From: Anaeromyxobacter sp.
Lineage (GTDB): Bacteria; Myxococcota; Myxococcia; Myxococcales; Anaeromyxobacteraceae
Direction of reading: 5' to 3'
Assembly: GCA_020028115.1 (NCBI GenBank)
Contig: JAHWYA010000014.1
Span: 1 to 18,763 of the forward strand
DNA length: 18,763 bases
The notes below the pieces were generated by a model. It was given only the letters and a program-made list of their open reading frames with translations. It searched no databases and had not been told where the DNA came from. The position numbers were made by a program, and so were the translations under genes. Each line of letters starts with the position of its first letter. Positions within the stretch are counted from its first letter, which is position 1. Shown here piece by piece: positions 1 to 18,297 of the stretch.

Positions 1-59
1 AGGCCCGCGAGCAGGGCCGACGCGACCTTGCGGACGCGATGAGCGCCGCGGACGGTCAT
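1..59 (-). CDS. N-terminus of an exported protein, cut by the window edge
   Basis: Only 19 codons are visible. The ATG at 59-57 overlaps the TGA stop of the upstream gene in an ATGA arrangement, which implies translational coupling. The visible start is basic (MTVRGAHRVRKV) followed by the small hydrophobic stretch ASALLAG, which is the n-region and beginning of the h-region of a signal peptide or signal anchor. Nothing can be said about function. It is the last visible member of the unit that begins with the giant cytochrome, so another periplasmic or cytochrome-related protein is likely, but this is inference. Confidence 0.55.
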   Translation of the reverse strand, partial: MTVRGAHRVRKVASALLAG

Positions 60-577
60 CTCGCTGCCTCGCCGCGGCTCCCGTCGAGGAGGTCCCAGCC
101 GACCACCGTCCACTCGCGGCGCGAGTGCAGTAAGTGGTACCTCGCCTCGACGACCTCCGCTCGGGTCCGGAGCTCGGTCCCCTTCGCGTCCCTGACGCGG
201 ACGACCCAGTACTCCGTCGAATCGAGCGTCAGCACGGTCCTGCCCGCCCACGTCGGGTTCCGAAGCTCGCTCCGGACGAGGCGGGGCTCCTCGATCTCGC
301 CCCGGTGCAGCGCGAACGATGCCGCTGCCACGAGCTCGTTCACGACGAGCGGCGAGGCGGGGATCGCGTCGGCGAACCGGTCGTCCCCTCCGGAGCCGTG
401 GAGGTGCGCGGAGAGCTGCAGGAAGACCTCCACCGCCCGGGCCGCCTCCGAGCGGGCGGGCTCCCCCACGGCCTCACCCCGAACACCATGCGCTCGGGCG
501 ACCCTGGCCGCTTCGAGGCCGAGCAGCGCGAGGCCCGTCGCGATCACGGCGGCCGGGAGGACGAGGGCGTTACGCAT
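56..577 (-). CDS. Small exported or membrane-anchored protein of unknown function
   Basis: This gene encodes 173 residues. The first ~20 (MRNALVLPAAVIATGLALLG) form a signal peptide or a single N-terminal anchor. The rest is soluble, alpha/beta in character, and ends in a Trp- and Tyr-rich segment (ARYHLLHSRREWTVVGWDLLDG). No heme motif, lipobox or recognised catalytic motif is present. The Shine-Dalgarno region is weak, with GGGGA about four bases before the ATG. It lies 60 bases after the ResB-like gene and its stop overlaps the start of the next gene (ATGA), so it sits in the cytochrome-associated cluster. An accessory periplasmic protein of that system is possible. I do not recognise the family. 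Confidence 0.7.
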   Translation of the reverse strand: MRNALVLPAAVIATGLALLGLEAARVARAHGVRGEAVGEPARSEAARAVEVFLQLSAHLHGSGGDDRFADAIPASPLVVNELVAAASFALHRGEIEEPRLVRSELRNPTWAGRTVLTLDSTEYWVVRVRDAKGTELRTRAEVVEARYHLLHSRREWTVVGWDLLDGSRGEAAR

Positions 578-637: not shown

Positions 638-1615
638 TCACCGGCCGCGCCAGGCCGCGATCGCCCATGCCACCGCCGCGGCGAGCGCCAGGACCGCTCC
701 GGCGAGCGTCGTCCTCCGATGGCTCCTCCGAGAGACGTCGATCTCCGACCACATCTTCAGCCCGGCGAACCCGACCTGCCAACCCTCGCGCATCGTCGCG
801 CCGTGGCCCGGCAGCAGCGCTCCCTCGCCGAGGACCTCCTCCCCTCGGCGAACGCGGACGGTCAGCTTCGGATGGCCCCTCATGGCCTCGTCCAGGCCGG
901 AGACGTCGATGGCGGCCTCGACGGCTACGCCGTGGTCCTCGAGGGGAAGCTCCGTCTCGAACGCCACGCCGGTCGGGCCGACCCGCCGCGACTCGAAGTG
1001 CACCGTCGTGTCGAGGACCGTCGCTCCGTCGTGCTTGACGACGAGCCGCGGCGCGAACCCGAACGCGCCCTGGAACAGGACGAGCGGCCCGACGGCAGCG
1101 CCGTGATCCGGCGTCACGCGGGCCTCCACGCGCCCGCCCGCCGTCCACAGGGCGACCGAGCTCTCCGGCACGAAGCCGTCGCCAGCGGGCCGGAGCGAGA
1201 CGTTCGCGAGCCGCAGCGTGCCCCGGAGCTCCGCGAGCCGCGCGAGCGGCCCCGCGGAAAGGCCCCGCAGCCCCTGTCCGGACGCAAGCGCGACGTCCTC
1301 GCCCTCGGTGAGCAGGACGAAGCCCTGGTAGCCGAGCGCCCAGTTCGCGAGGCCGGTCCCGCTGGCGAGGGCGAGCCCGGCATAGAGGGCCGCCTCCGCG
1401 ACCCGCGACCGCCAGCGGCCCTTTGACGACGCGAGCGTCGCGAGCGTCGCGACGAACGCGGCGATCGCCGCCGCCGCGACGGCGCCCCCGAGCGCGGCGA
1501 GAGCGGACGGCGAGAGCGCGACGCGCCCCGCGCGGAAGAGGGCGAGCGCGGCCGCGAACGCGACCGCGCTCCCGACCAGCGCCCATCGCGTCACAGCGAC
1601 GAACATCCGCCGCAT
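638..1615 (-). CDS. ResB-like cytochrome c biogenesis membrane protein
   Basis: The predicted protein has 325 residues. I start it at the ATG at 1615 because this lies just after the stop of the cytochrome gene (1642), with GGAGGAGG upstream; the longer open frame runs back into that gene. Helices lie near residues 6-27, 36-62 and 70-94. A ~200-residue extracytoplasmic beta-rich domain follows, beginning with GYQGFVLLTEGE, and a last helix lies near 301-321 before a basic tail. Three N-terminal helices, a periplasmic domain and one C-terminal helix is the layout of the ResB/Ccs1 component of System II heme c attachment, which keeps apocytochrome thiols reduced and helps deliver heme. It is shorter than typical ResB proteins, and no separate CcsA/ResC partner is visible. 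Its position directly after a 62-heme cytochrome supports a maturation role. Family assignment rests on topology and weak motif likeness. Confidence 0.55.
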   Translation of the reverse strand: MRRMFVAVTRWALVGSAVAFAAALALFRAGRVALSPSALAALGGAVAAAAIAAFVATLATLASSKGRWRSRVAEAALYAGLALASGTGLANWALGYQGFVLLTEGEDVALASGQGLRGLSAGPLARLAELRGTLRLANVSLRPAGDGFVPESSVALWTAGGRVEARVTPDHGAAVGPLVLFQGAFGFAPRLVVKHDGATVLDTTVHFESRRVGPTGVAFETELPLEDHGVAVEAAIDVSGLDEAMRGHPKLTVRVRRGEEVLGEGALLPGHGATMREGWQVGFAGLKMWSEIDVSRRSHRRTTLAGAVLALAAAVAWAIAAWRGR

Positions 1616-1641: not shown

Positions 1642-4600
1642 CTAGTAGTTGAGCGCGCGGGCCCGACTGGACCCCGCCCCCATCGACTTGCCGGTGCTGT
1701 GCTGCGTGCAGCTGCCCCACGTGTCGGTCGTGCCGCTGAGCGTGTAGCAGCTGAACGAGCTCGTCTGCCAGTTCTCCGGGTTCGCCTCGCCCGGCGAGTA
1801 GAAGCGCAGCGAGCTTCCGTTCATGAACCGGTAGGCGTTGCGCGTGCCGCCGACGCCGTTCCCGAACACCTGGCTCGTGCCGTGGATCCAGCCGAACCCG
1901 TTGGTGTCGGTCGACACGCTCCCGTTACCCTGCGCGCCGCCGTGGCAGTTCAAGCAGGCGAGGCCGAACACCGTGCCTCCCTTGCCGCCCGGGTTCTTGC
2001 GCGACCCGCTGACGTTCGCGTTGTAGGTCAGCCCGGAGCCGTCCTGGAAGTCGCTGCCGTTCGTCGGGCCGTGGCTGCCGGACGTGCTGTACGAGCCGGC
2101 GACGTGGCACCTCGCGCAGACGTAGTTGCCGCTCGGGTACGACCCCAGCGCCGCGCCACCGCTCGAATCCTTCAGGAGGTACTCGGCCGCGGTCGAGCCG
2201 TGCGCGCTTCCGGCCGTCCCGTTCGCGCCGTCCACGGTGTGGCAGTCCGCGCAGCCCATCACGGACGTGTCGTTCCAGAGCGGACCGTTCGCGTCCGAGA
2301 CGCCCTTCTGCACGAAGTAGCCGCCGTCGTAGATGGTCGCGCCGTACGAGATCGCCCCCGTGTACTTCGTGTACCGCGAGGTCGACTGGCCGCGGATCGC
2401 GTGCCGCGAGAACGCACCCTGCGCCGGCGGGGCCCCGGAGACCTTCGACTTGATGTCCACCACCCGGCCGCCCGTCGCGGGCGGAACGGTCGTCGAGCCG
2501 GCGGCCGTGTTGGAGCGATTGAACGTGTCGTAGTTGTTCTTGATGTTGTCCGCCCCGTCCCAGAACGGGTCCGTTGAGGCCCGGTTGGTCTCCGTCGACA
2601 CACGGAAGCTCGAGATCTGCAGCGCGCCGTCGGCGTCGTGGCAGTTCAGGCAGAACCTATCCAGGCCGGCCTTCGTGGGCAGCGTGACCCCGCCCGGTTC
2701 CTCGACGCCCGAAGTCCACTCGCGCCAGGCCTGGTTGCCGCTGTACCAGTTTGCGGCCGCCCCAGCGGAGGTCGCCACGAAGTTGCTGTCGTACACGAAC
2801 GCGGCCGTCGCCGAGGAGGCGTCCACCGCCGGGGCGGCGACGTCCACGTCACGAAGGTCGATCTTGCCGTTGCCGTGGTACGACGGGTTGGTGCAGGTCG
2901 TCGGGAACGTGCCCGTCGCGCAGTCGGCCGACGGCCCGGTGACGATCTGGCCTTCCGCGTGACAGACGACGCAGTCGCGGTTCGTGCCCCAGCCCGCGGC
3001 CTCGGTCGTGCCCGTGGTGCTGAACGCGCCGACGTTCGTACGGACGTGGTGCGACTTGCCCGTGAAATCACCGCTCAGGGCGCGCGTGCCCCCCTGGCCG
3101 CCGCTGTGGCAGCCGAAGCAGTTGGGGCCGCCACCCTTGCCCGCGAAGTCGTCCTTGTGGGCGTGGCACTTGATGCAGTACGTCGGGTCGGTCTCGGTCG
3201 CGTTGTGGGTGCTCGGTGACACGGCGTTGTCCGAGCCGTTCCACCGCCAGTACTTGGTCGAGCCGACCGTCGCGTCGGTGCCCTTCGCCGGGTCGTGGCA
3301 CGCCTGGCACAGGCCGATGCGCGTCGCGGTGGTCGCCTCGACGAGCTTGCCGACCGCGGGCGGGCTGCCGGCGCGGCTGTTCCAGGTGACGTTCTTCAGC
3401 GTCGGGTTGATGCCGTACGTGCCGTCGGTGATCTGGAACACCTGCGAGCGGATCATCAGGATGTTCTGGCCCGCGGCCGTCGTGTTGCTCGGCCGGTCGC
3501 CGTGCGGATCGTGGCAGTCCCAGCAGAACTTGCCGCCCTCGGTGCCCTGGTGCTTCGTGCCCATGTGGTTCTGGGCGACCCACTGCGTCGCCTTCTTCGG
3601 CGTCGCCTGGTCCGCGGGCATCACGCCAGGAGACGAGCTCGAGCCGTGGCAGTTGAGGCAGACGTCGTTGCCGAAGTTCGTGCTCGTCGCGTTGAACGCC
3701 GCGGTCACGCCGGACGCGTCGGCCGCGCCGCGCAGCAGGTAGGGGTTCGTGTCACCGCGCGCGCCGGAGACGTGCGCCAGCGCATCGTCGTGGCAGAACT
3801 TGCACTCGGACTTCAGCGGCGTGGGGGTCGACGGGAAGTTCGCGGGGGGGTTCGTCGATCCGTCGTAGTTCCCGCTCTTCTTGCCGTGGCCGGAGTAGCC
3901 CCACTCCGTCGAGCTGATGAGGGACGGGTTCAGGTCCTTCCAGAACGTCCCGCTGAACGCGCCGGTGTCGTTGCCCGTCGTGAGGTGGCACCCGCCGCAG
4001 TTGCCGGTCTCGAACTTCGCGCTGTGGGTGTGGCACCGCAGGCAGAACTGGGCGTTCGTCTCGGTCGAGTCGTGAAGGCTCGTGTAGGCCGCCGCGCCCG
4101 TCGAGCCGTCCGGGTCGTCCGTCCCGTTCGAGCGCCAGTAGCGCGTCGACTGCGTCCCCGCCTTCGACGGATCGTGGCAGGCCTGGCACAGGCCCACCCG
4201 CGTCGCGTTCGTCGCCTCGACGAGCTTGCCCACCGCCGGCGGGCTCGCCGCGATCTGGTTGAACGTGACGTTCACGAGCGTCGGGTTGATGCCGTACGTC
4301 CCGTCCGTCGCCTTGAACACCTGCGACCGGATCATGAGGATGTTGCCGCTGCCCGAGATGCGCTCGCCGTGGGCGTCGTGGCAGTCCCAGCAGAACTGGC
4401 CGCCCTCCCCCGCCGCGTGCTTCGAGCCGTAGTGCGTGTCGACGACGAAGGTGGTGGCCTTCTTGTTGGTCTGGCCGCTCGGCGTCACGCCCGGCGACGA
4501 AGACGAGCTGTGGCAGTTGAGGCACACCGCGTTCGGCGCGGCCGTGCTCCACGCCGCAGTCGTCCCGCCCGTCGAGACGCCGCGCAGCCGGTACGGATTA

Positions 4601-7600
4601 CCCGCCGCGCCCGGGTTGTGGCCGGTCGTCTCGTCGTGACAGTAGCGGCACTCCGACTCGCCCGGGTTCGGCGCCGTCGAGAAGTTCGCCGGCTGGTTGC
4701 CCGTCACGTCGTACGTCACGCCGGTCTTGCCGTGGCCCGACCAGGTCCACTCGGCGAGGTTGAACTCCGCGCGGTTGGCGTTGCTCCAGAACGTGCCGGT
4801 CCGGTCGTCGTTGTCCGCCGACTGGCCGTGGCAGCCGAGGCAGGTGCCGTTCCCCGCGAAGTTGTCGTTGTGCGGGTGGCAGTCGATGCAGTACTGCGTC
4901 GTGTTGTGGTGCGCCCCGGTGGTCACGCCGGACGCGTACGCTCCGGTGCCGCCGTTCCCGTCCGGATCGTCCCGGCCGTCCTTCTCCCAGTACTTGGTCC
5001 ACGCCGTCGCCGGGCTCGGCGCAGCGGTCGTGTCGTGGCACGCCTGGCACAGGCCCTTGTGCGTCGTGCCCGCGGCAGTGGTCGTCTCGGCGGCGCGGCC
5101 CACCGGCGACGGCGCGTTCTGCGGCGCGGTCGTCGTGTAGAACTCCACGTCCACTGTCGCCCCGGCCGTCCCGAGGTACCCGTGGACGCCGTCGCCCTTC
5201 ACGATCACGCTCTTGCGGATCATGAAGACGTTGTAGCCGGACGAGTTGGTGTTCGACGGCCGGTCACCGTGCGGATCGTGGCAATCCCAGCAGAAGTTGC
5301 CGCCCTGGGTGAGCAGCGTGTGCTTCGCGCCGCCGTGCGCCATGTCCGGCTTCAGCGTGCCGTTCTTCAGCGAGGCGCCCGTGGGGAACACCCCGAACGA
5401 GCCGGTGGCGTGGCAGTTCAGGCAGGCGTAGTTCGCCATCGTCCCCGACGTGTACGGGTCGAACGTCGCGCCGCCCGACCTCGAGCGGCCGCGCAGGCGG
5501 AACGGGTTGCCCGCGAGCTCGTGCTCGATCGCGTCGTCATGGCAGAAGAGGCACTCCGTCTTCCCGGGCGTCGGGCTCGTCGGGAACGCCGCCGCCGGGT
5601 TGTCCGACTCGTACTTGCCGGACGCCTTGCCGTGGCCGGAGTAGGTCCACTCGCGCGTGCTGACGATCGCGACGAGGTCGTCCGACCAGAACGTCGTGCC
5701 GATGTACTCGACGTCCGCGCTCCCGCCGTGGCAGTCGAGGCAACTGACCGTGCCGCCCCACCGCGGCGTCGCGGTGCCGTGGCAGCTCACGTTCATGCAG
5801 GTCTTCGAGACCGGGTTGTAGTTCGTCGTCGCGCCGTTCGTGTCGAACGACGGGTTGATGACGACGTCGCGGACGCCGTTCGTGTGGCTCGTCGCGAACA
5901 GCGCGTCGGCCGTGGCGTTCGTGATGCTGTAGTGGCAGTTGACGCAGGCCCCCACGCTCGTCTTCACGTGCTCCTGATGGTCGTTCGCCGTCGCGCTGCC
6001 GGCCGCGCCGCTCGTGTAGTTCGGCTCACCGAACTGCGAGGCGAACCCGTACACCGCGCCGTCGCCCGCGACGAACGCGCCGTGGCAGTTCTTGCACATG
6101 TTCGCCGGCCAGACCGACGTCCAGCCCACCGGCTCGTAGTGCGCCGTCGCGTTCGGATCCTGGCCCGACGAGTGGCAGTACACCGAGGCGCAGAACGGGT
6201 TGCCCGCCGCCGGGCTCGTGCTCGTCCGCGTCCCGCGCGCCGAGATCGCCACCTGCTTCGTGCGGTCCACGTGCTGCGCGGTGCTCACGAACACCCCGTC
6301 CGTGCCCGCCTGGACCGTCGTGTTGTGGCAGTCGCCGCACCGGTAGTTCGTCCCGATCTTCGCCGAGTTCGCGACGTGCGTCAGGTGCGTGATCGAGCCG
6401 TTCTTCTGGCCCGACAGGTTCGAGCCCACCACGACCGGGTCCGCCGCCGTGAAGCCGTGGCAGCTGTAGCAGGTCTTCGTCGCCGTCCACGCGATCGACG
6501 TGTTCGCCGGCGGAGACGCCGCGTTCGTGCCGTTCGAGTGGCAGTACGTGTTCGCGCAGGTGTAGCTCGGTCCCTGGGCGTAGCTCGTCGACCCGGGGTT
6601 CATCGCCGTGTCGAACACCACCGTGTGCACGCCGGAGACGTGGTTCGCCCGTCCCGCCGCCGTGATCGAAAGGCCCGTGCCGTCCGACTGCCCCGTCGCC
6701 GTCGCGTTGTGGCACTGCGAGCAGTTGTAGAAGTACCCGCCGTTCGCGACCGCCGCCGTGATGTGCAGCCAGTGCCCGTGCGACAGCTTCGTCGACGCGG
6801 GGTTCAGCGGGTTGTCCGCCGTGACCTGGTGGCAGCTCGTGCACGTCATGTTCGCCGAGCTCGTCCAGTTCGGCTGCGGCGTCGTCGTCTGCGTGCCGCC
6901 CACCGGCGCCGCGTTCGAGTGGCAGTAGTTCGTGCACGTCGGGCTTGCCTGCCACCCCGCCGTGATCTGGCCCGCCGCCGGAGCGACCGTGATCGCCGTC
7001 GAAGACGCGAGCGTCGTCCACGCCATGTCCACCGCGCCGTCAGCGTGATCGGTGTTCCCGTTCGCGCGGTTCGGGTGGCAGCTCACGCACCCGAGCGGCT
7101 GGATCGCGTTCAGGCTTCCGTTCGGACGCACGTGCGCGTCATGGGCACCGACCGCGACCGACGCCGCGTACCAGGCGCCCCACGTGTCCACGCCCACGCC
7201 GTTGTAGCCCGGCGCCGCGGCAGGATCCGTGTTGTTAGCCGCCGCTCCACCGACGCCCGCGAGCTGGCCGTGGCACGCGCGGCAGCCGTTCTGCGGCTTG
7301 TCGATTCCGACCCGCGTGTTCCCGGTCAGGTGCGTCGCCTTCGCCGCCGCGCCCATCGTCGGGCCCGTGTAGCCCGTCCCGTGGCAGTTCGCGCAGTTCG
7401 TGTTCGACGGGTGGTTCGCGTTCGCCGACGGCGTCACCGGCGGCGGGTTCCCGTGGCACCAGTTACAGCTCGCCGTCGTCCCGCCCGTCCAGCTCGGGGT
7501 CCGGTTCGTCCCGCCGATGTCCGCCGCCACCGCGCCCGGTGCGTGGCAGTACGTGTTCGCGCAGGTCGTCCCGTTCCAGGTGATCGTCCGCGACGTCGAG

Positions 7601-10600
7601 GTCGCGAGCTGGCTCCACCCGAGATCGCGCGTGCCGTTGTGCGACGCGCCATTGTGGCAGTCGTTGCACGCGAGCGGATCCTGCCGCAGCGCGTTGTCGT
7701 TCACGTGCTTCTCGTGCTCGCCGACCGCGCGAGCGCTCTCCAGCGTCTCGCCGTTCACGCCGTCCGGCGGCGCGGCCTGCTGGTTCGCGTCGGCGCCCGA
7801 GATCGACGGGCGCGTCGACTTGCCGTGGCAGTCCGTGCACCCGAGCGTGTCGCCCCAGCGCGGCGTCTTGATGCCGTGGCAGCTCACGCTCATGCAGGTC
7901 TTCGAGACCGGGTTGTAGTTCGTCGTGGCGCCGTTCGTGTCGAACGACGGCGCGATCAGCACGTCGCGGTAGCCGTTCGTGTGGCTCGTCGCGAACAGCG
8001 CGTCCGCCGTCGCGTTCACGATGGAGTAGTGGCAGTTCTGGCAGCTCGCCGGGTTCGTCCCGAACGACGTGTGCTTCCCGTGGGTGTTCGCGTCGGCGCC
8101 GCCCGCGGGCCCGAGCTGCGGGTAGTCCGGCGCGCCGGTGACGTTTCCGGTGCCGTGGCACCCGTTGCAGCCCAGCGCGGGGCCGCCGGTCCAGGTCGCC
8201 GCCACGTAGGCCGGCGTCGCCTGGCCCGACGAGTGGCAGTAGACCGCGGTGCAGCTCCCGCCGACCGGATCCGTGCTCGCCTTGGGGCCGCGGTTCGCGA
8301 TCGAGACCTGCCGCGCGCGATCGACGTGGTTCGACGCCGTCGTGATCGGACCGTTCGTGCCCGCGTCCACCGTCGCCTTGTGGCAGTCACCGCAGAAGTA
8401 GTTCGCCCCGAGGGTGGTCGCGTTCGCGACGTGCGCCTGGTGGCGCGCGGTCCCGTTGCCGGCGCCGACGCCGATGACCACCGGCGCGCCCTGGGCGCCG
8501 CCGTGGCAGGACGTGCAGGTCGCCGAGCCGCTGCCCGCGTTCCACGCGAGCGCCGCGCCGACGGGCGCGCCGAACGGCGAGCTCGGGGACGTGCCGTTCG
8601 AGTGGCAGTAGGTGGCCGAGCAGGTGTGATCCGCCTCGTACTGGCTCGCGCCGGAGAAGAACGCCGACCAGGTGAGGTCGGTCACGGTGAACCGGACGTC
8701 GTTCTGCGAGTCCACGTGCAGCCCGCCGCCGGAGACGATCGACGAGCCGTTGTCGGTCGTGCCCGCGTGGCACGCCTGGCAGCCGACGCCCTGCGTGGCG
8801 ACGTGCAGCGGGTGCGCGTGCGTCGAGAGCGCCGCCGTCTCGTGGCACGTCGTGCAGGTCATCTGGACCGTGCTCGTCCAGGTCGCGGGCTTCGGCGTCG
8901 CGGCGAGCCCGAGCGGCTTGCCGGTGGAGTGGCAGTAGTTGGTGCACCCCGGCGACGACTCGAAGGCGGCGTTGAACGCGGGGGGCTGGGTGGCGACCCC
9001 GTTCGAGCTCGGGACCGCCCCGTACCCGAAGGCGATCGTGCCGTCCGCGTGATCGCGGTTGCCGCTCGCAGGCTTCCCGCCGTGGCAGACGGCGCAGTCC
9101 TGCGGGGCGATGTACCGGCCCTTGCCGTGCGCGTCGTGCGCGCCGACGCGGACGACGGTCCGCTCCGTCCTGCCGCGCGTGTCGCTGCCGACGCCGCCGA
9201 GCCCGTCCTCGTACCCGGGCATCGCCAGGAACGACGTGTTGTCCGCGACGGGGCCGCCGATGCCGGAGAGGAGGCCGTGGCAGGCGGTGCAGCCGTTCTC
9301 CGGCTTCTGCACGGTGCCGTCGATGTGCGTCGGCTTCGCGAGGGCGCCGACGCTCGTCTCGGCGTAGTCGCCGCCGTGACAGCTCGAGCACGAGGTGTTC
9401 TGGGGATGGACGTTCGCGACGCCGCCGCCGAGGGGGGGCGGGCTCGCGTGGCAGCTCCCGCACGGCGCGGACGCGTCCGTCCAGCGCGGCGGGGTGGTCT
9501 TCGCCGTGCCGCCGCCGCCGGCGAGGCCGGCGCCGTGGCACCAGTTCGTGCAGCTCGGGGTGGCCGTCCAGGCGCCGTCGAGGGCGCCGGCGGGCGGCGT
9601 CACCGCGACCGACCCGGTCGTCGCGAGGAGGCTCCACGACACCTCGGTGTCGCCCTGGTGCGTGTTGGGCGACGGGTGGCAGGCGACGCAGTGGAGCGGC
9701 GCCTGGCGCCAGGAGGCCAGGTTCACGTGCGCGAGGTGCGCGCCGCCGCCCGCGACGAACACGGTCGCGCCGGTCGCGACCTGCGGCGGGGCCGCGGCCT
9801 GCTGCGCGTCGGCGCCAGGGGCGGACCCGCGGCCCGCGTCGCCGTGGCAGCCGAAGCAGCTCGCGGCGAGGCCGTCCCCGTGCTTGTGGCAGGTGACGCA
9901 GGCGCCGGTCGGGTTGTGGCCGCCGGACGCGACGGTGCTGGCGGGGAACGCCGGATCCGGGACGTCGACTCCGCTGCCCCGGTAGAACTTGGTGCGCGTG
10001 TGGCAGACCTGGCACGGGCCGTCGAGCCCGGCGCTCGCGTAGGAGCCCGCCGCGAACCCGGTCTTCCCGTAGAAGGTCACCGTCTTCGGGCCCTGCTGCG
10101 CCGTGATCTGCGGCGGGGTGATCTGCTCGGCGACGAGCGCGACGTTCCGCGTGCGGTGCGGGGTGTGGCAGTCGCGGCAGGTGGTCGACCAGGAGCCCCG
10201 GGCGCTCTCGGTCGACTCGCTCGTGTGGCCCTTGTGCGCGTGGCAGTCGGAGCAGAGCTGGCTCGAGTTGTCGCGGACGAGGAGGTTGCCGTCGCCGGTC
10301 TTCGAGGCCTTCGCGACGATCGGGACGCCGTTCGAGACGACGTTCGAGGCCACCGCGTTCGAGGCGCGCGCGCGCAGCGTGTAGGTGCCCGGCGCGGGGG
10401 TGAGCCGCACCTCGAACATGCGGCCGGTGACGACGCCGAGCGTCGTGGTGTCGTAGGCGGTGGTGCTCGTGAGGCCGGCCGTGTCCCAGGTCCCGCCGTC
10501 GTTCGTGCTGTAGGCGACCCCGGAGACGGCGTCGACGCCGCCTGCGTTCGCCACGCGGATCTGCACGCGGAACTCGCCGCTGACGACGCTCCCCCTCAGC

Positions 10601-13233
10601 GGGTTGACGATCGAGACCATCGGCGCGCCGGCGGTGGTGCTGCCCTCCGCCACGAACGGCCCGGACGGTGAGTAGGGGCCTGCCTGCGCGCCCACGGAGA
10701 AGTTCCGGTTCGCGTCGCGCGAGAACGCCTTGTAGACGTACTGGGCGCCGTTCAGCACGTTCGCGTCGTGGCACGACGACGCCGGCGCGGCCTCCACGCA
10801 GGCGACGGTCGCGAGGCCCACGACGTTGCCGACCGCGTAGTCGGGCGTCCGGCCCTCCTGCGGCACCTCCACCCCAGGGGTCGCGGCGTTCCAGCGGAGC
10901 AGGACGATCTGGGCGTTGCCCGCGGGGTTCGTCCAGGTGAGGTCGACGTACCCGTCGCCGGCCGAGCCGCCGAGCCCCGACGGCGCGTCCGGAGAGCGGT
11001 TGTCGATCGTCCGCGCGGGGCTGACGGTGTCGCTGCCCGTCTGGGAGAACCCGGTGGCCACGACGCCGGTGACCTGGCCGGTCACGGCGACCTGCGTCCC
11101 GGGGGGCGGCGGCATGGCCGCGTGGGACTTCGGCGCCACGCAGATCCAGAGCGGCACCGCCGAGATGCCGACGGTGAGGCTGGACACGGTGATCGTCGGG
11201 GTGTCGGACGAGGGGTTCACCCAGCCGTAGGGCGAAGCCTGGTCGCAGGCGGACGTGTTCTCGACCGTGAGGAGGCCGACCACCTCGGCGGATCCGCCGG
11301 GCATCGTCACCGTGATGCTCTCCGGCGTCGCGGTCCCGACGGACGCCGCGAGCGTGAACGCGTCGAGGACGATCTTCGCCGCCCCGGGGACGAGCGTCGT
11401 CGCCGCCTCTCCGGTGGAGGCGTCACCGATGGCGACGGATGCCCCGGCCGTCAAGGTGACCGTTGCGTCCGCTGTGAACCCGCCGTCGACGGTCGTGACC
11501 CGGACGGAGCACCCCGCCGTGACGGCGGCCGGCGCCGTGTACAGGCCGGTCGCGCCGACCGTGCCGCACCCGGCCCCGCCGAGCACGCTCCAGTTGACGG
11601 ACTGGTTCGTCGCCCCGCCCGGCGAGATCGTCGCGGTGAACTGCTGGGTGGCGCTCACCTGCACGCTCGCGCTCGTCGGCGCGATGGCGACCCCGCTGAC
11701 CGCGATGCCGCTCACGGTGATCGTCGTCTCCCCGAAGACGCCGCTGCCGTCCGCCGCCGTCGCGCGCACGACGCAGGAGCGCGGGATCGTGCCGCCGGCG
11801 AACGCCGTGAACGTCGTCGTCGCGACGCCGTCTCCGGCCGTGGTGGCCGGGCTCACCGTGTCGTTCGCGTCGCAGCCGGAGATCTTGGTCCAGCTCACGT
11901 TGCGGTTCGTCGCGCCTGCGGGGCTCGCGGTGGCGGACAGGGCCTGCGTCGCGCCGCCCTGGATGGTCGCGGTCGCGGGGGTCACCGAGACGCCGGTGAC
12001 GGTGGAGGCCGGGCTCACGGAGTCGAGCGCGTCGCAGCCGGCGCCCTTCGTCCAGCTGACGTCGCGGTTCGTAGCGCCCGCGGGGCTCGCGGTCGCCGAG
12101 AGCGTCCGGGTCCCGCCCGCGGAGATCGTGGCGGACGTCGGGTTCACCGAGACGCCCGTCACCAGGATCGGATTGATCGTGATCGACGACGTCGCGGAGA
12201 AGCCGCTGCCGTCGGCCGCGGTCGCGGTCACGGCGCAGGTGCGCGGGAACGTGCCGGTCGTCCCGGCGGTGAAGGTCGTCGTCGCCGCGCCGTCACCGAG
12301 CGTGGACGCAGGGCTCACCCCGTCGCTCGCGTCGCACCCGGCGCCGGTCGTCCAGTTGACGTTGCGGTCCGTTGCGTTCGCGGGCAGCGCGGTCGCCGAG
12401 ATGGTCCGGGTGCCGCCCGCCGAGATCGTGGCGGATGTCGGGTTCACGGTGACGCCCGTGACGAGGATCGCCGGCTTGAGCGCGATGCTCATCGCGCCCT
12501 TGTAGCTGCTGACCGAGAGCGTCAGGGTCGTGTCGCCGATCGCGCCCGCCGTCGCCTTGGTCCCGATGATCAGGCAGTGACCACCGCCGAGCCCCTGGTT
12601 GCTCGAGTTGTCGCTGCGCTCGGTGATCGCCGCGAGCGCGGCGTTCGTCGCGGCGCCGCAGTTCGCCGTCGAGTTGCCGTTGTTCGAGTTTCCCTGGACG
12701 AGGACGACGAGGGTGTTCGCGACCGTGGTGGTCGCCCCCGGGATCACGGCGGTCGCGTCGTTCAGGCCGGCATCGTTCCCCCCGGAGGTGACGTCCCACG
12801 GGTTGCCGCTCGTCACGGCGCCGCTGAACGCGTGGAGCTGGCAGGTGGTGTGGTCGCCGGCATCCGCCGCCACAGGGCTCGCGTCCCCACCGACGGCCCG
12901 CTTCCAGAAGACCGCGATCCGGTTCGCCGGTTCGGTCAGCGCGGTCCCCGCGAACTGCGGCGAGTTCGTCACCTCGACGAAGCCGTTCGGCGTCGAGAGG
13001 GAGATCGCCTCGTTCTCGCTCTCGACGACGAGGAGCAGGACGTCGCCAGCGACGACGCCCGCGGGCATCGGCGCGGTGCAGGCATTGCCGCTACCGGTGA
13101 ACGAGCCGGAGCTCCTGTACGCGACCGCCGCGAGCGCCGGGGTCGCGCCGAAGGCGAGGGCGATGACGGAGCAGAGCGACGCGATGCGGACGACTCCCGC
13201 GCGGCCTGGTCTCGAGCACTTCTTCGGCGTCAT
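1642..13233 (-). CDS. Giant extracellular multiheme c-type cytochrome, 62 heme motifs, with Ig-like N-terminus
   Basis: This is about 3863 residues in one intact frame. A Sec signal peptide ends near residue 37 (ATPALA-AV) and there is no lipobox. Then come a lectin-like beta domain (to ~255), four bacterial Ig-like (BIG2) repeats (~256-596), and FnIII- and Ig-like domains (~740-985). From ~994 to ~3765 there are 62 heme c motifs by my reading: 52 CX2CH, 3 CX3CH (CTNWCH, CTNYCH twice) and 7 CX4CH (such as CANTYCH, CTAVYCH, CMSVSCH). Their order is 5 + 17 + 17 + 6 + 6 + 6 + 5. CX4CH/CX2CH alternation is known from Geobacter and Anaeromyxobacter secreted cytochromes. The C-terminus has a small Cys-pair motif (FSCYTLSG...WGSCTQHS). 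Inferred role: outer-surface electron storage or transfer to extracellular acceptors. The ATG at 13233 is preferred over the adjacent GTG at 13236 because GGGGAG lies eight bases before it. No transmembrane barrel or anchor is visible. Confidence 0.95.
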   Translation of the reverse strand: MTPKKCSRPGRAGVVRIASLCSVIALAFGATPALAAVAYRSSGSFTGSGNACTAPMPAGVVAGDVLLLVVESENEAISLSTPNGFVEVTNSPQFAGTALTEPANRIAVFWKRAVGGDASPVAADAGDHTTCQLHAFSGAVTSGNPWDVTSGGNDAGLNDATAVIPGATTTVANTLVVLVQGNSNNGNSTANCGAATNAALAAITERSDNSSNQGLGGGHCLIIGTKATAGAIGDTTLTLSVSSYKGAMSIALKPAILVTGVTVNPTSATISAGGTRTISATALPANATDRNVNWTTGAGCDASDGVSPASTLGDGAATTTFTAGTTGTFPRTCAVTATAADGSGFSATSSITINPILVTGVSVNPTSATISAGGTRTLSATASPAGATNRDVSWTKGAGCDALDSVSPASTVTGVSVTPATATIQGGATQALSATASPAGATNRNVSWTKISGCDANDTVSPATTAGDGVATTTFTAFAGGTIPRSCVVRATAADGSGVFGETTITVSGIAVSGVAIAPTSASVQVSATQQFTATISPGGATNQSVNWSVLGGAGCGTVGATGLYTAPAAVTAGCSVRVTTVDGGFTADATVTLTAGASVAIGDASTGEAATTLVPGAAKIVLDAFTLAASVGTATPESITVTMPGGSAEVVGLLTVENTSACDQASPYGWVNPSSDTPTITVSSLTVGISAVPLWICVAPKSHAAMPPPPGTQVAVTGQVTGVVATGFSQTGSDTVSPARTIDNRSPDAPSGLGGSAGDGYVDLTWTNPAGNAQIVLLRWNAATPGVEVPQEGRTPDYAVGNVVGLATVACVEAAPASSCHDANVLNGAQYVYKAFSRDANRNFSVGAQAGPYSPSGPFVAEGSTTAGAPMVSIVNPLRGSVVSGEFRVQIRVANAGGVDAVSGVAYSTNDGGTWDTAGLTSTTAYDTTTLGVVTGRMFEVRLTPAPGTYTLRARASNAVASNVVSNGVPIVAKASKTGDGNLLVRDNSSQLCSDCHAHKGHTSESTESARGSWSTTCRDCHTPHRTRNVALVAEQITPPQITAQQGPKTVTFYGKTGFAAGSYASAGLDGPCQVCHTRTKFYRGSGVDVPDPAFPASTVASGGHNPTGACVTCHKHGDGLAASCFGCHGDAGRGSAPGADAQQAAAPPQVATGATVFVAGGGAHLAHVNLASWRQAPLHCVACHPSPNTHQGDTEVSWSLLATTGSVAVTPPAGALDGAWTATPSCTNWCHGAGLAGGGGTAKTTPPRWTDASAPCGSCHASPPPLGGGVANVHPQNTSCSSCHGGDYAETSVGALAKPTHIDGTVQKPENGCTACHGLLSGIGGPVADNTSFLAMPGYEDGLGGVGSDTRGRTERTVVRVGAHDAHGKGRYIAPQDCAVCHGGKPASGNRDHADGTIAFGYGAVPSSNGVATQPPAFNAAFESSPGCTNYCHSTGKPLGLAATPKPATWTSTVQMTCTTCHETAALSTHAHPLHVATQGVGCQACHAGTTDNGSSIVSGGGLHVDSQNDVRFTVTDLTWSAFFSGASQYEADHTCSATYCHSNGTSPSSPFGAPVGAALAWNAGSGSATCTSCHGGAQGAPVVIGVGAGNGTARHQAHVANATTLGANYFCGDCHKATVDAGTNGPITTASNHVDRARQVSIANRGPKASTDPVGGSCTAVYCHSSGQATPAYVAATWTGGPALGCNGCHGTGNVTGAPDYPQLGPAGGADANTHGKHTSFGTNPASCQNCHYSIVNATADALFATSHTNGYRDVLIAPSFDTNGATTNYNPVSKTCMSVSCHGIKTPRWGDTLGCTDCHGKSTRPSISGADANQQAAPPDGVNGETLESARAVGEHEKHVNDNALRQDPLACNDCHNGASHNGTRDLGWSQLATSTSRTITWNGTTCANTYCHAPGAVAADIGGTNRTPSWTGGTTASCNWCHGNPPPVTPSANANHPSNTNCANCHGTGYTGPTMGAAAKATHLTGNTRVGIDKPQNGCRACHGQLAGVGGAAANNTDPAAAPGYNGVGVDTWGAWYAASVAVGAHDAHVRPNGSLNAIQPLGCVSCHPNRANGNTDHADGAVDMAWTTLASSTAITVAPAAGQITAGWQASPTCTNYCHSNAAPVGGTQTTTPQPNWTSSANMTCTSCHQVTADNPLNPASTKLSHGHWLHITAAVANGGYFYNCSQCHNATATGQSDGTGLSITAAGRANHVSGVHTVVFDTAMNPGSTSYAQGPSYTCANTYCHSNGTNAASPPANTSIAWTATKTCYSCHGFTAADPVVVGSNLSGQKNGSITHLTHVANSAKIGTNYRCGDCHNTTVQAGTDGVFVSTAQHVDRTKQVAISARGTRTSTSPAAGNPFCASVYCHSSGQDPNATAHYEPVGWTSVWPANMCKNCHGAFVAGDGAVYGFASQFGEPNYTSGAAGSATANDHQEHVKTSVGACVNCHYSITNATADALFATSHTNGVRDVVINPSFDTNGATTNYNPVSKTCMNVSCHGTATPRWGGTVSCLDCHGGSADVEYIGTTFWSDDLVAIVSTREWTYSGHGKASGKYESDNPAAAFPTSPTPGKTECLFCHDDAIEHELAGNPFRLRGRSRSGGATFDPYTSGTMANYACLNCHATGSFGVFPTGASLKNGTLKPDMAHGGAKHTLLTQGGNFCWDCHDPHGDRPSNTNSSGYNVFMIRKSVIVKGDGVHGYLGTAGATVDVEFYTTTAPQNAPSPVGRAAETTTAAGTTHKGLCQACHDTTAAPSPATAWTKYWEKDGRDDPDGNGGTGAYASGVTTGAHHNTTQYCIDCHPHNDNFAGNGTCLGCHGQSADNDDRTGTFWSNANRAEFNLAEWTWSGHGKTGVTYDVTGNQPANFSTAPNPGESECRYCHDETTGHNPGAAGNPYRLRGVSTGGTTAAWSTAAPNAVCLNCHSSSSSPGVTPSGQTNKKATTFVVDTHYGSKHAAGEGGQFCWDCHDAHGERISGSGNILMIRSQVFKATDGTYGINPTLVNVTFNQIAASPPAVGKLVEATNATRVGLCQACHDPSKAGTQSTRYWRSNGTDDPDGSTGAAAYTSLHDSTETNAQFCLRCHTHSAKFETGNCGGCHLTTGNDTGAFSGTFWKDLNPSLISSTEWGYSGHGKKSGNYDGSTNPPANFPSTPTPLKSECKFCHDDALAHVSGARGDTNPYLLRGAADASGVTAAFNATSTNFGNDVCLNCHGSSSSPGVMPADQATPKKATQWVAQNHMGTKHQGTEGGKFCWDCHDPHGDRPSNTTAAGQNILMIRSQVFQITDGTYGINPTLKNVTWNSRAGSPPAVGKLVEATTATRIGLCQACHDPAKGTDATVGSTKYWRWNGSDNAVSPSTHNATETDPTYCIKCHAHKDDFAGKGGGPNCFGCHSGGQGGTRALSGDFTGKSHHVRTNVGAFSTTGTTEAAGWGTNRDCVVCHAEGQIVTGPSADCATGTFPTTCTNPSYHGNGKIDLRDVDVAAPAVDASSATAAFVYDSNFVATSAGAAANWYSGNQAWREWTSGVEEPGGVTLPTKAGLDRFCLNCHDADGALQISSFRVSTETNRASTDPFWDGADNIKNNYDTFNRSNTAAGSTTVPPATGGRVVDIKSKVSGAPPAQGAFSRHAIRGQSTSRYTKYTGAISYGATIYDGGYFVQKGVSDANGPLWNDTSVMGCADCHTVDGANGTAGSAHGSTAAEYLLKDSSGGAALGSYPSGNYVCARCHVAGSYSTSGSHGPTNGSDFQDGSGLTYNANVSGSRKNPGGKGGTVFGLACLNCHGGAQGNGSVSTDTNGFGWIHGTSQVFGNGVGGTRNAYRFMNGSSLRFYSPGEANPENWQTSSFSCYTLSGTTDTWGSCTQHSTGKSMGAGSSRARALNY
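3061..3945 (-). repeat. 6-heme module, copy 3 of 3
   Basis: It starts at FWKDLN and carries heme motifs 52-57 (CKFCH, CLNCH, CWDCH, CQACH, CIKCH, CFGCH). It keeps EWGYSGHGK, the CWDCHDPHGDRPSN block, ILMIRSQVF, DGTYGINPTL, SPPAVGKLVEAT and IGLCQACHDP. The DPDG loop after YWRWNGSDN is missing, so it is slightly shortened there. The five C-terminal hemes (58-62) follow in non-repeated sequence. Confidence 0.85.
3946..4791 (-). repeat. 6-heme module, copy 2 of 3
   Basis: It spans 282 residues starting at FWSNAN with heme motifs 46-51 (CRYCH, CLNCH, CWDCH, CQACH, CLRCH, CGGCH). It shares EWTWSGHGK, CWDCHDAHGER, ILMIRSQVF, DGTYGINPTL, SPPAVGKLVEAT, VGLCQACHDP and YWRSNGTDDPDG with copy 3. Copies 2 and 3 are clearly closer to each other than to copy 1. 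Confidence 0.85.
4792..5691 (-). repeat. 6-heme module, copy 1 of 3
   Basis: Three hundred residues begin at FWSDDL and carry heme motifs 40-45 (CLFCH, CLNCH, CWDCH, CQACH, CIDCH, CLGCH), all CX2CH. Landmarks shared with the other copies are EWTYSGHGK, the CWDCHDPHGDRPSN segment, a VFMIRKS strand, GLCQACHD, and a YWEKDGRDDPDG segment. This copy differs most in the strand after FMIR (VIVKGDGVHGYLGTAG). Confidence 0.85.
5743..7839 (-). repeat. 17-heme module B, tandem copy of module A
   Basis: It covers about residues 1800-2498 (heme motifs 22 to 38). All heme motifs align one-to-one with module A at an offset of 17. The spacing class matches at every position except motif 24, which is CX4CH (CANTYCH) where the partner motif 7 is CX3CH (CTNWCH). 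The distance between equivalent hemes is 673-699 residues. Sequence identity is highest in the last third, around ATADALFATSHTNG and FDTNGATTNYNPVSKTC, and lower in the first half, as expected for an old duplication with later divergence or patchy conversion. Confidence 0.85.
7840..9858 (-). repeat. 17-heme module A of the giant cytochrome
   Basis: It covers about residues 1127-1799 (heme motifs 5 to 21). Counting from heme 6, the spacing classes run CX2, CX3 (CTNWCH), CX2 four times, CX3 (CTNYCH), CX2, CX2, CX4 (CSATYCH), CX2, CX2, CX4 (CTAVYCH), CX2, CX2, CX4 (CMSVSCH), then CX2 at the junction. The start GADAQQAAAPP recurs as GADANQQAAPP at the start of module B. Shared blocks include the VGAHDAH segment, the Asn-Ala-Thr-Ala-Asp-Ala-Leu-Phe-Ala-Thr-Ser-His segment, and the NGATTNYNPVSKTC segment. 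Confidence 0.85.
11450..12468 (-). repeat. Four tandem bacterial Ig-like repeats, one truncated
   Basis: These begin near residues 257, 357, 411 and 510 of the giant cytochrome, each starting with a VTGV.V.PTSATI-like strand. Repeats 1 and 3 are about 100 residues and carry a Cys pair (GCDA...RTCAV and GCDAN...RSCVV), probably a disulfide. Repeat 4 is more diverged (AGCGT...AGCSV). Repeat 2 is only ~54 residues: it stops after SVSPAST and runs straight into repeat 3, so its GCDALD cysteine lacks a partner. BIG2-type domains in surface proteins usually act as spacers or in adhesion. Confidence 0.8.
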
Positions 13234-13704: not shown

Positions 13705-13755
13705 ACCGATTGCCGCTCGGCTGCGAGATGTTCCTTACACGAAAGGAGCGACACC

Positions 13756-15730: not shown

Positions 15731-16390
15731 TCAGCCGTCGACGCGGATGACGCCCCGCTTGAGGGCGAACCGCACGAGCTCCGTCCGGTTGTGGACCCCG
15801 AGCTTCTCCATCACGTGCTCGCGGTGGCTCATGGCGGTCTTCACGCTGATCCCGAGGACCTCCGCGACCTCCTTGTTCGAGCGCCCCTCGGCGACGAGCT
15901 TCAGCACCTGCTTCTCGCGATCGGTGAGCGCGTCGTAGGGGTCTACCCCCCCGCCGCCGGCGGCCGGGTTGGCCTCGGCCATCGCGGTCCGCGCGACCTC
16001 GGGATCGAGCACGAGGCCCCCGCGGTGCACGGCGCGGATCGCGTTCGCGAGCTCGGCGCCGGCGGACTTCTTGAGGACGTACCCGGAGACGCCCGCCTTG
16101 AGGAGCCGGCGCACGTACTCGCGGTCCTCGTACTGCGAGAGGATGAGGACCTTGGCGCGGCGCCCGAGCTTCTTCAGCTCGATCGTCGCCTCGATCCCGC
16201 CGAGGCCCGGCATCGCGATGTCCATGAGCACGACGTCGGGATCGAGCCTCCCGACCGCCTCGATGGCGCCCGTCCCGTCCTGCGCCTCGCCCACCACCTC
16301 GATGTCCGGGTGGAGCTGCAGGAGCGCCCGCACGCCCTCCCGGAGGATCGCGTGGTCGTCCACCACGAGGACCCTGATCTTGCCGCTCAT
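15731..16390 (-). CDS. LuxR/NarL-family response regulator
   Basis: The protein has 219 residues. The receiver domain (about 1-125) has the acidic pair D11-D12, phospho-acceptor D57 (VVLMDIAMP), a Ser in LILSQYED, and the conserved Lys in YVLKKS. The C-terminal LuxR-type helix-turn-helix (about 152-217) reads LTDREKQVLKLVAEGRSNKEVA then ISVKTAMSHREHVMEKLGV, the standard GerE-fold signature with full length. The start is fixed by GGAGGTGA seven bases before the ATG at 16390. That ATG overlaps the kinase stop (ATGA), so the two are co-translated. It should be phosphorylated by the adjacent kinase and bind DNA as a dimer. Targets are unknown. Note that sigma-54-dependent control would need a different class of regulator, since this one lacks an AAA+ domain. 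Confidence 0.95.
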   Translation of the reverse strand: MSGKIRVLVVDDHAILREGVRALLQLHPDIEVVGEAQDGTGAIEAVGRLDPDVVLMDIAMPGLGGIEATIELKKLGRRAKVLILSQYEDREYVRRLLKAGVSGYVLKKSAGAELANAIRAVHRGGLVLDPEVARTAMAEANPAAGGGGVDPYDALTDREKQVLKLVAEGRSNKEVAEVLGISVKTAMSHREHVMEKLGVHNRTELVRFALKRGVIRVDG

Positions 16391-18297
16391 GTCGCCGTCA
16401 CCTCCGCCGCCGCACCGTCTCGCGCGCCGCCGCCCGTGGGGTCGGGCGGCACCGGGATCCGCACCATGACGCGCGTCCCCTGCCCCGGCGCCGACTCGAT
16501 CCGGGCGTCGCCGCCGAGCAGCTCGGCGCGCTCGCGGATGCCCATGAGCCCCCAGGGCCTGCGCCCCTCGCGCCGGGCGACCGCCTGGCGGTCGAAGCCC
16601 CTCCCGTCGTCCTCGATGTCGATCACCACCTGGCGCCCCTCGGCCCCGCCCTCGACCCCGACCTGCACGAGCACCGCCGTCGCCTGCGCGTGCCGCGCGA
16701 CGTTGCTCATCGCCTCCTGGCACAGCCGGAAGAGCGCCGTCTCCATCTCGGGCGGCAGGCGCGGCATCTCGCCGAACTCGCACCGCACGGAGACGCCGCG
16801 CGACTCGAGCGAGCGCTCCGCGTACCACCGGATCGCGGACACGAGCCCGAGGTCGTCGAGCACCGACGGCCGCAGGTCGAGGATGAGCCGGTGCACGTCC
16901 TCGAGCGTACGGACCGCGAGCGCCTTCACCTCGTCGAGGTGCGGCACCTTGCCGGTCCGGTAGGCGTCCATCGCCGCGTCGATCCCCATCGCGAGCACCG
17001 CGAGCCCCTGCGTCGTCTCGTCGTGCAGCTCCCGGGCGATGCGCTTCCGCTCGTCCTCCTGCGCGGTGATCACCTTGCGCAGGAGCTGCGAGCGGGCCTC
17101 CTCGCGCTCGCGCAGGCGGGCGTTCGCGTCGTGGAGCTCCCGGGTGCGCTCCTCGACCCGCTGCTCCAGCTGCGCGTTCGCCTGCGCGACGTGGCCGATG
17201 AGCGCGGCGAGGTTCTGGCGCATCCTCTCGAGCGAGGTGCCGAGGCGGCCGACCTCGTCCGAGCCGAGCGCGGGGATCGGCCACTCGAGCTCGCCCCCGG
17301 CGATCCGCTCGGCGTGGTCGGTGAGCACCGCGACGGGCGCCGTGACGCTCCGCGCCGCGCCCCAGGCGAAGACGGCGGCGACGGCGCACTGCACGCCGAG
17401 GAGCGCGAGCACCACGTACCACGGGAGCGCGCCCTCGGCCGTGAGCGCCTCCCTCCGCGGCTGGCGCACCACGACGCCCCACGGGGCGCTCCCGACCGCC
17501 GCGAAGGTGATGTGCTGGTCCGGCCGCAGCTCGACCCCGTGCTCCGCGTGGCAGTCGGCGCACGGCGCCGCGACCGTGCGCTTCTCGGTCGCGAGCTGGA
17601 CCATCCGCTTCGCGCACTCGACCTTCTGGCCGACCCGGGGCCGGTCGGTCGAGGCGACGACGAGGCCGCTCCCGTCGACGAGGTCCGCCGCCCCGGTCGG
17701 GCCGCGCGGCAGGTACCGCAGCATCTTCTCGAAGTCGCGGCGCTCCGGGCGCACGGTCCCGCCGGCGACGCCGGCCACCTCCCCGCGCCAGCCGCGGATC
17801 GGGACGAGCTCGTAGACGATCCCGCCGCGCGTCCCCTCGACGACGCCGGACAGGCGCGGCCGGCCGCTCGCGAGGACCTCGGTGACGAGCGCGGCCGCGC
17901 TGGACGGCCCCTCGGTGTAGACGCCCGGCGGCTCCTCCGCGAGCACCCGCCCGTCGCGGTCGACGACGAACACGGCTTCCCGGTGGCGGAGCTGGTGGTG
18001 GGCCTCGCGGACCGCCCGCTCGATGGCCTCTAAGTCGAGCTTCCCGACGGCGCCCACCGTGGCCGACAGCCGCTGGAGGACCTCGAGATCCGCCGTGAGC
18101 TCCCCGTCGAAGTGGGCAGCGACCGCCGTGACCGCGCCGAGCCGCGCGCCGGTGACCCGCTCGTCGAGCGACTCGAGCCAGAAGAAGCCGGCCGCGGCCA
18201 TGAGGAGGAGCGGGAAGAACACCCCGACCCCCATGAGCAGGTAGACGCGGCGGCGGAGCGAGATCGCGCCGGTGGGCTGGGCCGGGCCGCTCGTCAT
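16387..18297 (-). CDS. Membrane histidine kinase with a heme c motif in its periplasmic sensor
   Basis: The protein has 636 residues. Helix 1 lies at ~18-41 and a periplasmic double-Cache-like sensor at ~42-288 (VFVVDRDGRVLAEE; GIVYELVPIRGWRGEVAGV; DLVDGSGLVVAS). Within it is C246-A-D-C249-H250, a standard c-type heme attachment site. Helix 2 (~291-313), HAMP (~313-368) and a coiled coil (~370-415) follow. The HisKA_3 dimerisation box ERKRIARELHDETTQG has H425 as phosphorylation site. The HATPase domain has N532 (QEAMSNVARHA), the DDGRGFD loop from D563, and GLMGIRERAELLGG. This is the NarX/LiaS/DegS class, which pairs with LuxR-type regulators such as the one directly downstream. The heme would be attached in the periplasm, so it could sense redox state, NO, CO or another ligand. 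The start ATG overlaps the upstream gene's stop (ATGA). Confidence 0.93.
   Translation of the reverse strand: MTSGPAQPTGAISLRRRVYLLMGVGVFFPLLLMAAAGFFWLESLDERVTGARLGAVTAVAAHFDGELTADLEVLQRLSATVGAVGKLDLEAIERAVREAHHQLRHREAVFVVDRDGRVLAEEPPGVYTEGPSSAAALVTEVLASGRPRLSGVVEGTRGGIVYELVPIRGWRGEVAGVAGGTVRPERRDFEKMLRYLPRGPTGAADLVDGSGLVVASTDRPRVGQKVECAKRMVQLATEKRTVAAPCADCHAEHGVELRPDQHITFAAVGSAPWGVVVRQPRREALTAEGALPWYVVLALLGVQCAVAAVFAWGAARSVTAPVAVLTDHAERIAGGELEWPIPALGSDEVGRLGTSLERMRQNLAALIGHVAQANAQLEQRVEERTRELHDANARLREREEARSQLLRKVITAQEDERKRIARELHDETTQGLAVLAMGIDAAMDAYRTGKVPHLDEVKALAVRTLEDVHRLILDLRPSVLDDLGLVSAIRWYAERSLESRGVSVRCEFGEMPRLPPEMETALFRLCQEAMSNVARHAQATAVLVQVGVEGGAEGRQVVIDIEDDGRGFDRQAVARREGRRPWGLMGIRERAELLGGDARIESAPGQGTRVMVRIPVPPDPTGGGARDGAAAEVTAT
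17548..17562 (-). other. CXXCH heme c attachment motif in the histidine kinase
   Basis: The minus strand encodes Cys-Ala-Asp-Cys-His at residues 246-250, between a Cache-like ligand domain and the second membrane helix, on the periplasmic side where cytochrome c maturation acts. A nearby upstream Cys (VECAKRM) and the following EHG may contribute to the fold or supply a second axial ligand. Confidence 0.8.

Follow-up and report, generated by a model that had tools for sequence, protein, structure and literature searches.

OmcS, OmcE and OmcZ are multiheme cytochromes of extracellular electron transfer, and their small subunits polymerise into filaments. GSU1996 of Geobacter sulfurreducens is described, in the text available of PMC10138318, as a linear wire of hemes made up of four triheme domains, with a crescent shape and hemes packed at 3–5 Å. 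The accessible parts of two further papers report a 40-heme cytochrome of Anaeromyxobacter dehalogenans 2CP-C (PMC2330069) and, as the largest cytochrome in genomes of anaerobic methanotrophic (ANME) archaea, one with 86 heme motifs (PMC9012536). The stretch analysed here is an 18,763-nucleotide contig of Anaeromyxobacter sp. (JAHWYA010000014.1; the whole of it is hereafter called the window). Its minus strand carries at 1642..13233 a gene for a giant multiheme c-type cytochrome of 3,863 amino acids (aa) with 62 heme motifs, a protein named in no title or abstract opening of the literature found. We lean towards reading it as an intact CxxxxCH/CxxCH cytochrome that forms a row of heme cassettes and is likely exported to conduct or store electrons, as a single chain, in extracellular respiration.

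Heme motifs and modules of the cytochrome

The frame runs from an ATG at 13233 to a stop codon at 1642 with 0 internal stops, and a GTG lies one codon 5' of the ATG. A CXnCH count with n = 2–4 along this frame gives 62 distinct motifs (52 CX2CH, 3 CX3CH and 7 CX4CH). The CH of the sole CX15CH match already belongs to a counted motif, and the CH at residue 821, whose nearest upstream Cys makes a CX8CH, is left out. In 200 residue-shuffled versions of the protein, the mean is 0.56 motifs and the maximum 3. Grouping by spacing yields 5+17+17+6+6+6+5. An earlier note on this DNA had claimed 62 heme c motifs in precisely this arrangement, placed at 1642..13233 and fused to an immunoglobulin (Ig)-like N terminus. 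The pattern count, which that note had also proposed as a check, bears out the number; the grouping agrees exactly, the coordinates are right with the gene on the minus strand, and Big_2 matches in four stretches support the Ig part. The protein matches PF09698 (GSu_C4xC__C2xCH) in eight stretches with 73.8 bits against a cut-off of 21.7 and Cytochrome_C7 in 11 stretches (both Pfam), and TIGR01904 in 12 stretches with 148.8 bits against a cut-off of 27 (NCBIfam); by these profile matches it is a member of the known CxxxxCH/CxxCH cytochrome family (PF09698/TIGR01904). The apo mass past residue 35 is 388 kDa, and about 38 kDa would be added if 62 of 62 hemes were attached.

The N terminus begins with a predicted signal peptide (residues 1–35; 13129..13233), based on hydrophobicity with the cleavage site placed by eye between FGATPALA and A; the top hydrophobic stretch of the protein is residues 12–39, and weaker ones start at 51 and 680. 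The heme-free part that follows (residues 36–983; 10285..13128) has no family for 36–256, Big_2 at about 256–600 and a fibronectin (FN)-like linker at 600–983, and contains only five His in 948 residues. The hemes are then arranged, all on the minus strand, in a head module of 5 hemes (residues 984–1150; 9784..10284), modules A1 (1165–1812; 7798..9741) and A2 (1840–2511; 5701..7716) of 17 hemes each, modules B1 (2512–2810; 4804..5700), B2 (2811–3092; 3958..4803) and B3 (3093–3390; 3064..3957) of 6 hemes each, and a tail module of 5 hemes (3395–3863, the last residue being Tyr; 1645..3051). Each A module is made of five triheme units, CxxCH-Cx3-4CH-CxxCH, with two hemes after the first unit (5+3+3+3+3), and the ten triheme units of A1 and A2 can be aligned. 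A1 and A2 share 50% protein and 63% DNA identity, and B1–B3 share 47–58% and 63–68%, respectively.

The numbers of free His and hemes are 5 and 5 in the head, 20 and 17 in both A1 and A2, 10 and 6 in B1, 7 and 6 in both B2 and B3, and 8 and 5 in the tail. In 14 aligned B modules, non-motif His residues are invariant at positions 62, 131, 136, 152, 251 and 267 and nearly so at position 24. The seven cytochrome modules together have only 19 Met against 62 hemes. Since free His residues are at least as numerous as hemes in every module and the B modules keep seven non-motif His residues, the sequence fits bis-His hemes. Among solved structures, 3ov0 is the top match for the A+B profile (2.8e-12) as well as for the B profile (5.5e-10); we take it to be dodecaheme GSU1996, and these profile matches lean on CxxCH. 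No filament subunit is named among the solved chains matched at E up to 1, either in all 20 of the B profile or in the best 60 of 75 of the A+B profile.

Cassette order and module history among relatives

Relatives were gathered by a protein search confined to about 0.55–1.75 times the query length, in which the 1,883 candidates sharing most words were scored. The resulting set comprises 54 proteins, the window's own included (P numbers denote proteins and L numbers genome stretches of relatives). They carry 25–111 motifs each, with at least 62 in 16 of the 54, and the top counts belong to P0027 (111 motifs, 5,341 aa), P0024 (101 motifs, 3,553 aa), P0036 (90) and P0044 (89). An open frame of 3,902 aa with 94 motifs lies on the minus strand of L085 (G013:C28, contig 42073–30368). 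Because relatives reach 111 motifs and the ANME paper, as far as its text is available, reports 86 (PMC9012536), 62 is a large number and no record. A record heme number for this protein is thus ruled out, and the exceptional size implied by the earlier note does not survive the comparison with these counts and with the 40 of A. dehalogenans 2CP-C. As a separate observation, P0027 and P0024 exceed the number given in the available text of the ANME paper. Proteins of 2,107–3,298 aa in L083, L093 and L099 match the first part of the query (the head region) and have only 14 motifs.

The modules of the window protein were turned into profiles and searched for in these 54 proteins; as both the profiles and the set derive from the window, presence is biased and order is not. 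The head is found in 38 proteins, A in 53, B in 46 and the tail in 20, and all four in 18. B starts within 30 residues past the A end in 39 of the 46 proteins having an A end, B stands directly before the tail in 15 of the 20 tail proteins, and an FN-like part directly precedes the head in 21 of 38 head proteins. Three consecutive B modules occur in the window protein only. Among the 53 other proteins, 19 match the tail; that it is a feature of the family in general is rejected at the sensitivity used, with matches in 3 of 24 genomes (the window's own included, one weakly). New here is the order of the cassettes, in which an Ig/FN part is followed by a head of 5 hemes, A modules of 17 hemes built from triheme units, B modules of 6 hemes and a tail of 5 hemes. 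The C-terminal residue is aromatic in 39 of the 54 proteins (26 Y, 9 W and 4 F), across several different tails, against a background of 6.8% F+W+Y among the residues of 128 proteins, and R-x-[LIV]-x-Y forms the C terminus of all 20 tail proteins (1645–1659 in the window). A second, shorter protein set, partly of partial proteins, has an aromatic end in 31 of 74. Since several different tails share this end, it is a fair guess that the aromatic C terminus acts as an outer-membrane or secretion signal.

The sister protein, P0002 of A. oryzisoli (a CxxxxCH/CxxCH domain c-type cytochrome of 2817 aa), has 50 motifs grouped as 5+17+17+6+5. Its order (FN, head of 5, A of 17, A of 17, B of 6, tail of 5) is that of the window protein, which differs in having three B modules. 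The two proteins are 61% identical in the head, 52% between the A1 modules, 48% between the A2 modules and 65% in the tail; the N-terminal part of P0002 has no match to the Ig array of the window and no annotated Big_2. The window genome is assigned to the same genus as the A. oryzisoli and A. oryzae genomes. In a B module tree of 59 rows, window B2 and B3 are sisters (100/99), window B1 groups with one B of P0014 (97/82), and all three belong to a group of six rows (100/99) whose other members are B modules of P0014, P0003 and P0015. P0002 has its B in another part of the tree, beside P0005 and P0012. A constraint joining the window's three B modules to that of P0002 is rejected by the approximately unbiased test (p-AU 0.00028), and a constraint making the window's three B modules one clade is not (p-AU 0.105). 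Because the B of P0002 is placed apart while the head, the tail and the A pair match P0002, the B array of the window is of a lineage other than that of the sister's B, either because cassettes were exchanged or because old paralogues were lost differentially. The B2–B3 pairing adds at least one duplication private to the window protein.

In the A modules, units a–d place window A2 with A2 of P0002 (96/96) and allow A1 with A1 (p-AU 0.805). Unit e places window A1 and A2 together (100/99), with 71% identity between them against 51% and 42% to P0002. This may be read as an old A–A tandem, the last unit of which was homogenised in the window lineage. Against homogenisation, an A1–A2 pair under the a–d data is not formally rejected (p-AU 0.108), and the whole-module tree pairs window A1 with A2 (100/99). 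Module copies share codons at 72–80% of identical residues (four pairs), compared with 70–72% expected from codon usage (three pairs computed), and a simple recent duplication is ruled out. The growth by duplication of two block kinds put forward in the earlier note holds as modular growth from two kinds and needs qualification as simple duplication, since the blocks are old, with identities of 50% for A and 47–58% for B, and part of the process was exchange or homogenisation.

Neighbouring genes and a possible link to heme synthases

A gene for a 325-aa membrane protein (638..1615, minus strand) starts 26 nucleotides past the cytochrome stop codon, and the third gene in the row encodes a 173-aa protein of no assigned family (56..577, minus strand). 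The same two genes lie in synteny downstream of the P0002 gene of A. oryzisoli, with 45% identity over 318 aa and 38% over about 115 aa, respectively. Neither Pfam nor NCBIfam yields a match for the 325-aa protein, and PF05140 in particular gives none. By profile comparison it is a remote ResB-like protein, a putative heme synthase half: a two-row profile aligned with eight ResB-like genes of relatives gives an hhalign probability of 94.7 (E 5.9e-8, 235 columns). Among 19 giant-gene stretches fetched from relatives and read by a simple gene caller (L094 lies outside this list), a ResB-like gene is found within a few genes of the giant in 10. ResB is above the Pfam cut-off in L082, L084, L087, L091, L092 and L099, and in L089, where it lies upstream, and below it in L083 and L085. 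In C13 of A. oryzisoli, a weak ResB match (E 0.0096) lies between two giants, and about 4 kb past the second giant there is a strong match. A CcsA-type gene (Cytochrom_C_asm) is confirmed in L082, L084, L087, L092, L085 and L089. L086 adjoins L085, and there the weak ResB gene and the CcsA-type gene separate the 94-motif giant from a second one with 48 motifs or more. The L088 stretch stops at the contig end. The idea that all giants adjoin ResB fails, 7 of the 19 stretches being without a match. Behind the 14-motif proteins, a ResB-like gene follows immediately in L083 and L099; none was found in L093.

In the text available of PMC2700814, Geobacter ResB genes are predicted to share a transcript with a ResC-like gene and with multiheme cytochromes, to which they may be dedicated, and that of PMC12285233 describes Wolinella synthases specific for unusual heme motifs. 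The dedicated-synthase idea is thus already known from the Geobacter ResB/ResC(CcsA) pairs (PMC2700814) and recurs here near giants of the window's family; the tie to these giant cytochromes was not seen in the literature found. In contrast to the Geobacter pairs as described there, the window contig shows only the remote ResB-like gene and then ends.

A sensor histidine kinase gene (16387..18297, minus strand), with a weak Cache match under the Pfam cut-off and CADCH in the sensor part, is followed by a NarL/LuxR-type response regulator gene, the start of which overlaps the kinase stop codon (15731..16390, minus strand). The kinase may be a redox sensor beside cytochrome genes. Of 17 aligned homologues, counting that of the window, 16 retain this CxxCH and L088 lacks it. 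At 13 of 16 kinase loci of relatives, a same-strand gene about 2.3 kb upstream encodes a cytochrome of 8–9 hemes (nine at 12 loci, eight in one cut frame); in the remaining three the upstream place is off-contig or was not fetched. A giant with at least 20 motifs lies within 25 kb of the kinase at 6 of the 16 loci, under incomplete coverage. Of two such loci examined, L138 encodes a b561-type cytochrome and L126 encodes NrfD and FeS proteins, gene content that suggests a quinol-to-outside route. Small membrane-type proteins starting with MATTYESG or MAKYTGG are encoded on the opposite strand beside the kinase–regulator pair (window 13747–14190, plus strand; L123 5654–6070; L126 12966–13906). 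Elsewhere, proteins of 1,012–1,074 aa are encoded directly upstream of a giant gene or of the 5-heme gene preceding it (L082 270–3491, L123 1612–4650 and L088 7721–10822); the two of the three that were tested, those of L082 and L123, have PKD/NHL domains, are not porins and could be surface partners.

Proposed function and known systems

As a single-chain conduit or store, the cytochrome would be exported through Sec and loaded with heme at most sites, partly by a dedicated ResB/CcsA-type synthase. Its bis-His hemes would stack as a continuous chain, like those of the GSU1996 triheme domains, electrons would be supplied by a quinol-oxidising inner-membrane system, the Ig part would reach or hold a surface, and the redox-sensing kinase would be linked transcriptionally to the cytochrome. 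The chain may, as the earlier note suggested, span a long electron path without polymerising. A conduit or store of many triheme-like units is favoured because the free and conserved His residues fit bis-His ligation and 3ov0 is the best match. Several points weigh against it. Some CX3CH and CX4CH sites may be without heme. AlphaFold2 models have predicted local distance difference test (pLDDT) values of 44 for A2+B1, unusable for heme distances, and 64.6 for B3, too poor for them, and Foldseek with the B3 model returned two matches only, both with E of 8 or above. Anchor, S-layer and MYXO-CTERM families were not found in Pfam and NCBIfam scans of the cytochrome, and no S-layer family appears at E up to 1 in Pfam. 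PF05140 matches are absent from L090, L093, L095–L098 and L122, in a search that also missed the weak L085 ResB. Scans of the seven window neighbours turned up no porin family that would account for passage through the outer membrane; the contig ends on both sides, which leaves a CcsA partner and the 9-heme gene out of view. The source genome is a bin, 66.6% complete and in 597 contigs.

Such a fragmented bin, with repeats present, is where an assembly or binning artefact could merge genes or alter the number of modules. The GC content at third codon positions does not fall below 0.89 in any of 76 sliding windows along the frame, with no visible frame switch; with the intact frame, it shows none of the merging of genes by frameshift that the earlier note had named as a risk. 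Since DNA identity among the module copies is 63–68% and the longest exact repeat in the gene is 37 bp, assembler confusion of copies is not expected. Genes of the same kind occur in other assemblies: the A. oryzisoli sister has the same order, and P0009, with 51 motifs, is encoded on a 6.72-Mb single-contig A. oryzae genome. An assembly merge or changed module number is very unlikely because the coding signal is unbroken, module DNA differs by 32–37% and A. oryzisoli shares the plan, and a merge or repeat collapse was rejected on these grounds. A more serious rival, though one to which we give distinctly less credence than to the conduit or store, is that the protein is mainly an electron reservoir (capacitor), whose hemes hold charge when acceptors are scarce and need no continuous path between modules. 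A reservoir has been proposed for large cytochromes such as the 40-heme protein of A. dehalogenans (PMC2330069) and for GSU1996 (PMC10138318), going by the text available of both papers, and the range of 25–111 motifs among relatives suits capacity as well as length. However, the recurrent order, the direct A–B junctions in 39 of 46 proteins and the separate tail suggest a directional chain, and a 948-residue Ig/FN part would be unnecessary for storage.

Cutting of a polyprotein-like precursor after export, into module-sized cytochromes that act singly or polymerise like Geobacter filaments, is improbable. The modules are self-contained, the A. oryzisoli and window proteins differ by whole B modules, and processing of OmcZ is known. 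Protease families were not found among the seven window neighbours, however, and, by the module boundaries adopted here, linkers measure 0 residues at A2–B1 and B–B and 27 at A1–A2, with no search made for cleavage sites. Still a little less probable is an outer-surface terminal reductase with hemes catalytic on metals or organics; the free His residues, which equal or exceed the hemes in each module, are consistent with six-coordinate transfer hemes, and no catalytic family matches above the cut-off in Pfam or NCBIfam.

Extending the single-chain conduit to the family, we put forward tentatively, and with more doubt than for the protein itself, that giants of the Anaeromyxobacter family are length-tunable wires under a cassette grammar. 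This would comprise a reach part that can be exchanged, a coupling head of 5 hemes, A and B wire cassettes in any number, which are swapped between paralogues, duplicated, and made uniform by gene conversion, and a terminal piece of 5 hemes whose aromatic C terminus serves as a sorting signal; many such wires would be loaded by a ResB/CcsA synthase of their own. If so, a lineage can alter wire length by single recombination steps. The 50-motif protein of A. oryzisoli and the 62-motif protein, with the same order and two extra B modules in the latter, offer a natural experiment on whether reach or capacity depends on heme number. Very large cytochromes are annotated widely and hardly studied; the module borders given here allow single modules to be expressed, following the precedent of GSU1996. 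The ResB/CcsA genes that recur nearby suggest an answer, open to testing, to the question of how one chain is loaded with dozens of hemes, CX3CH and CX4CH sites included.

The window protein shares with the ANME S-layer cytochromes a single chain and a similar heme load, whereas the ANME giants are archaeal and fused to an S-layer domain (PMC9012536, text available), and the window protein has no S-layer domain in the Pfam scan. The cytochrome of A. dehalogenans 2CP-C likewise carries very many hemes per chain in Anaeromyxobacter; set beside the window protein by its description only, in the accessible part of PMC2330069, it has fewer motifs (40 against 62). GSU1996 and the 27-heme GSU2210, described as nanowires, are monomeric multiheme chains like the window protein, and the triheme domains of GSU1996 resemble the c7-like triheme units repeated in the window chain. 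Both are smaller and, in the text available, are described as periplasmic (PMC10138318). In GSU1996, according to the same text, each domain has one His–Met heme, whereas in the window protein free His residues suffice for every heme.
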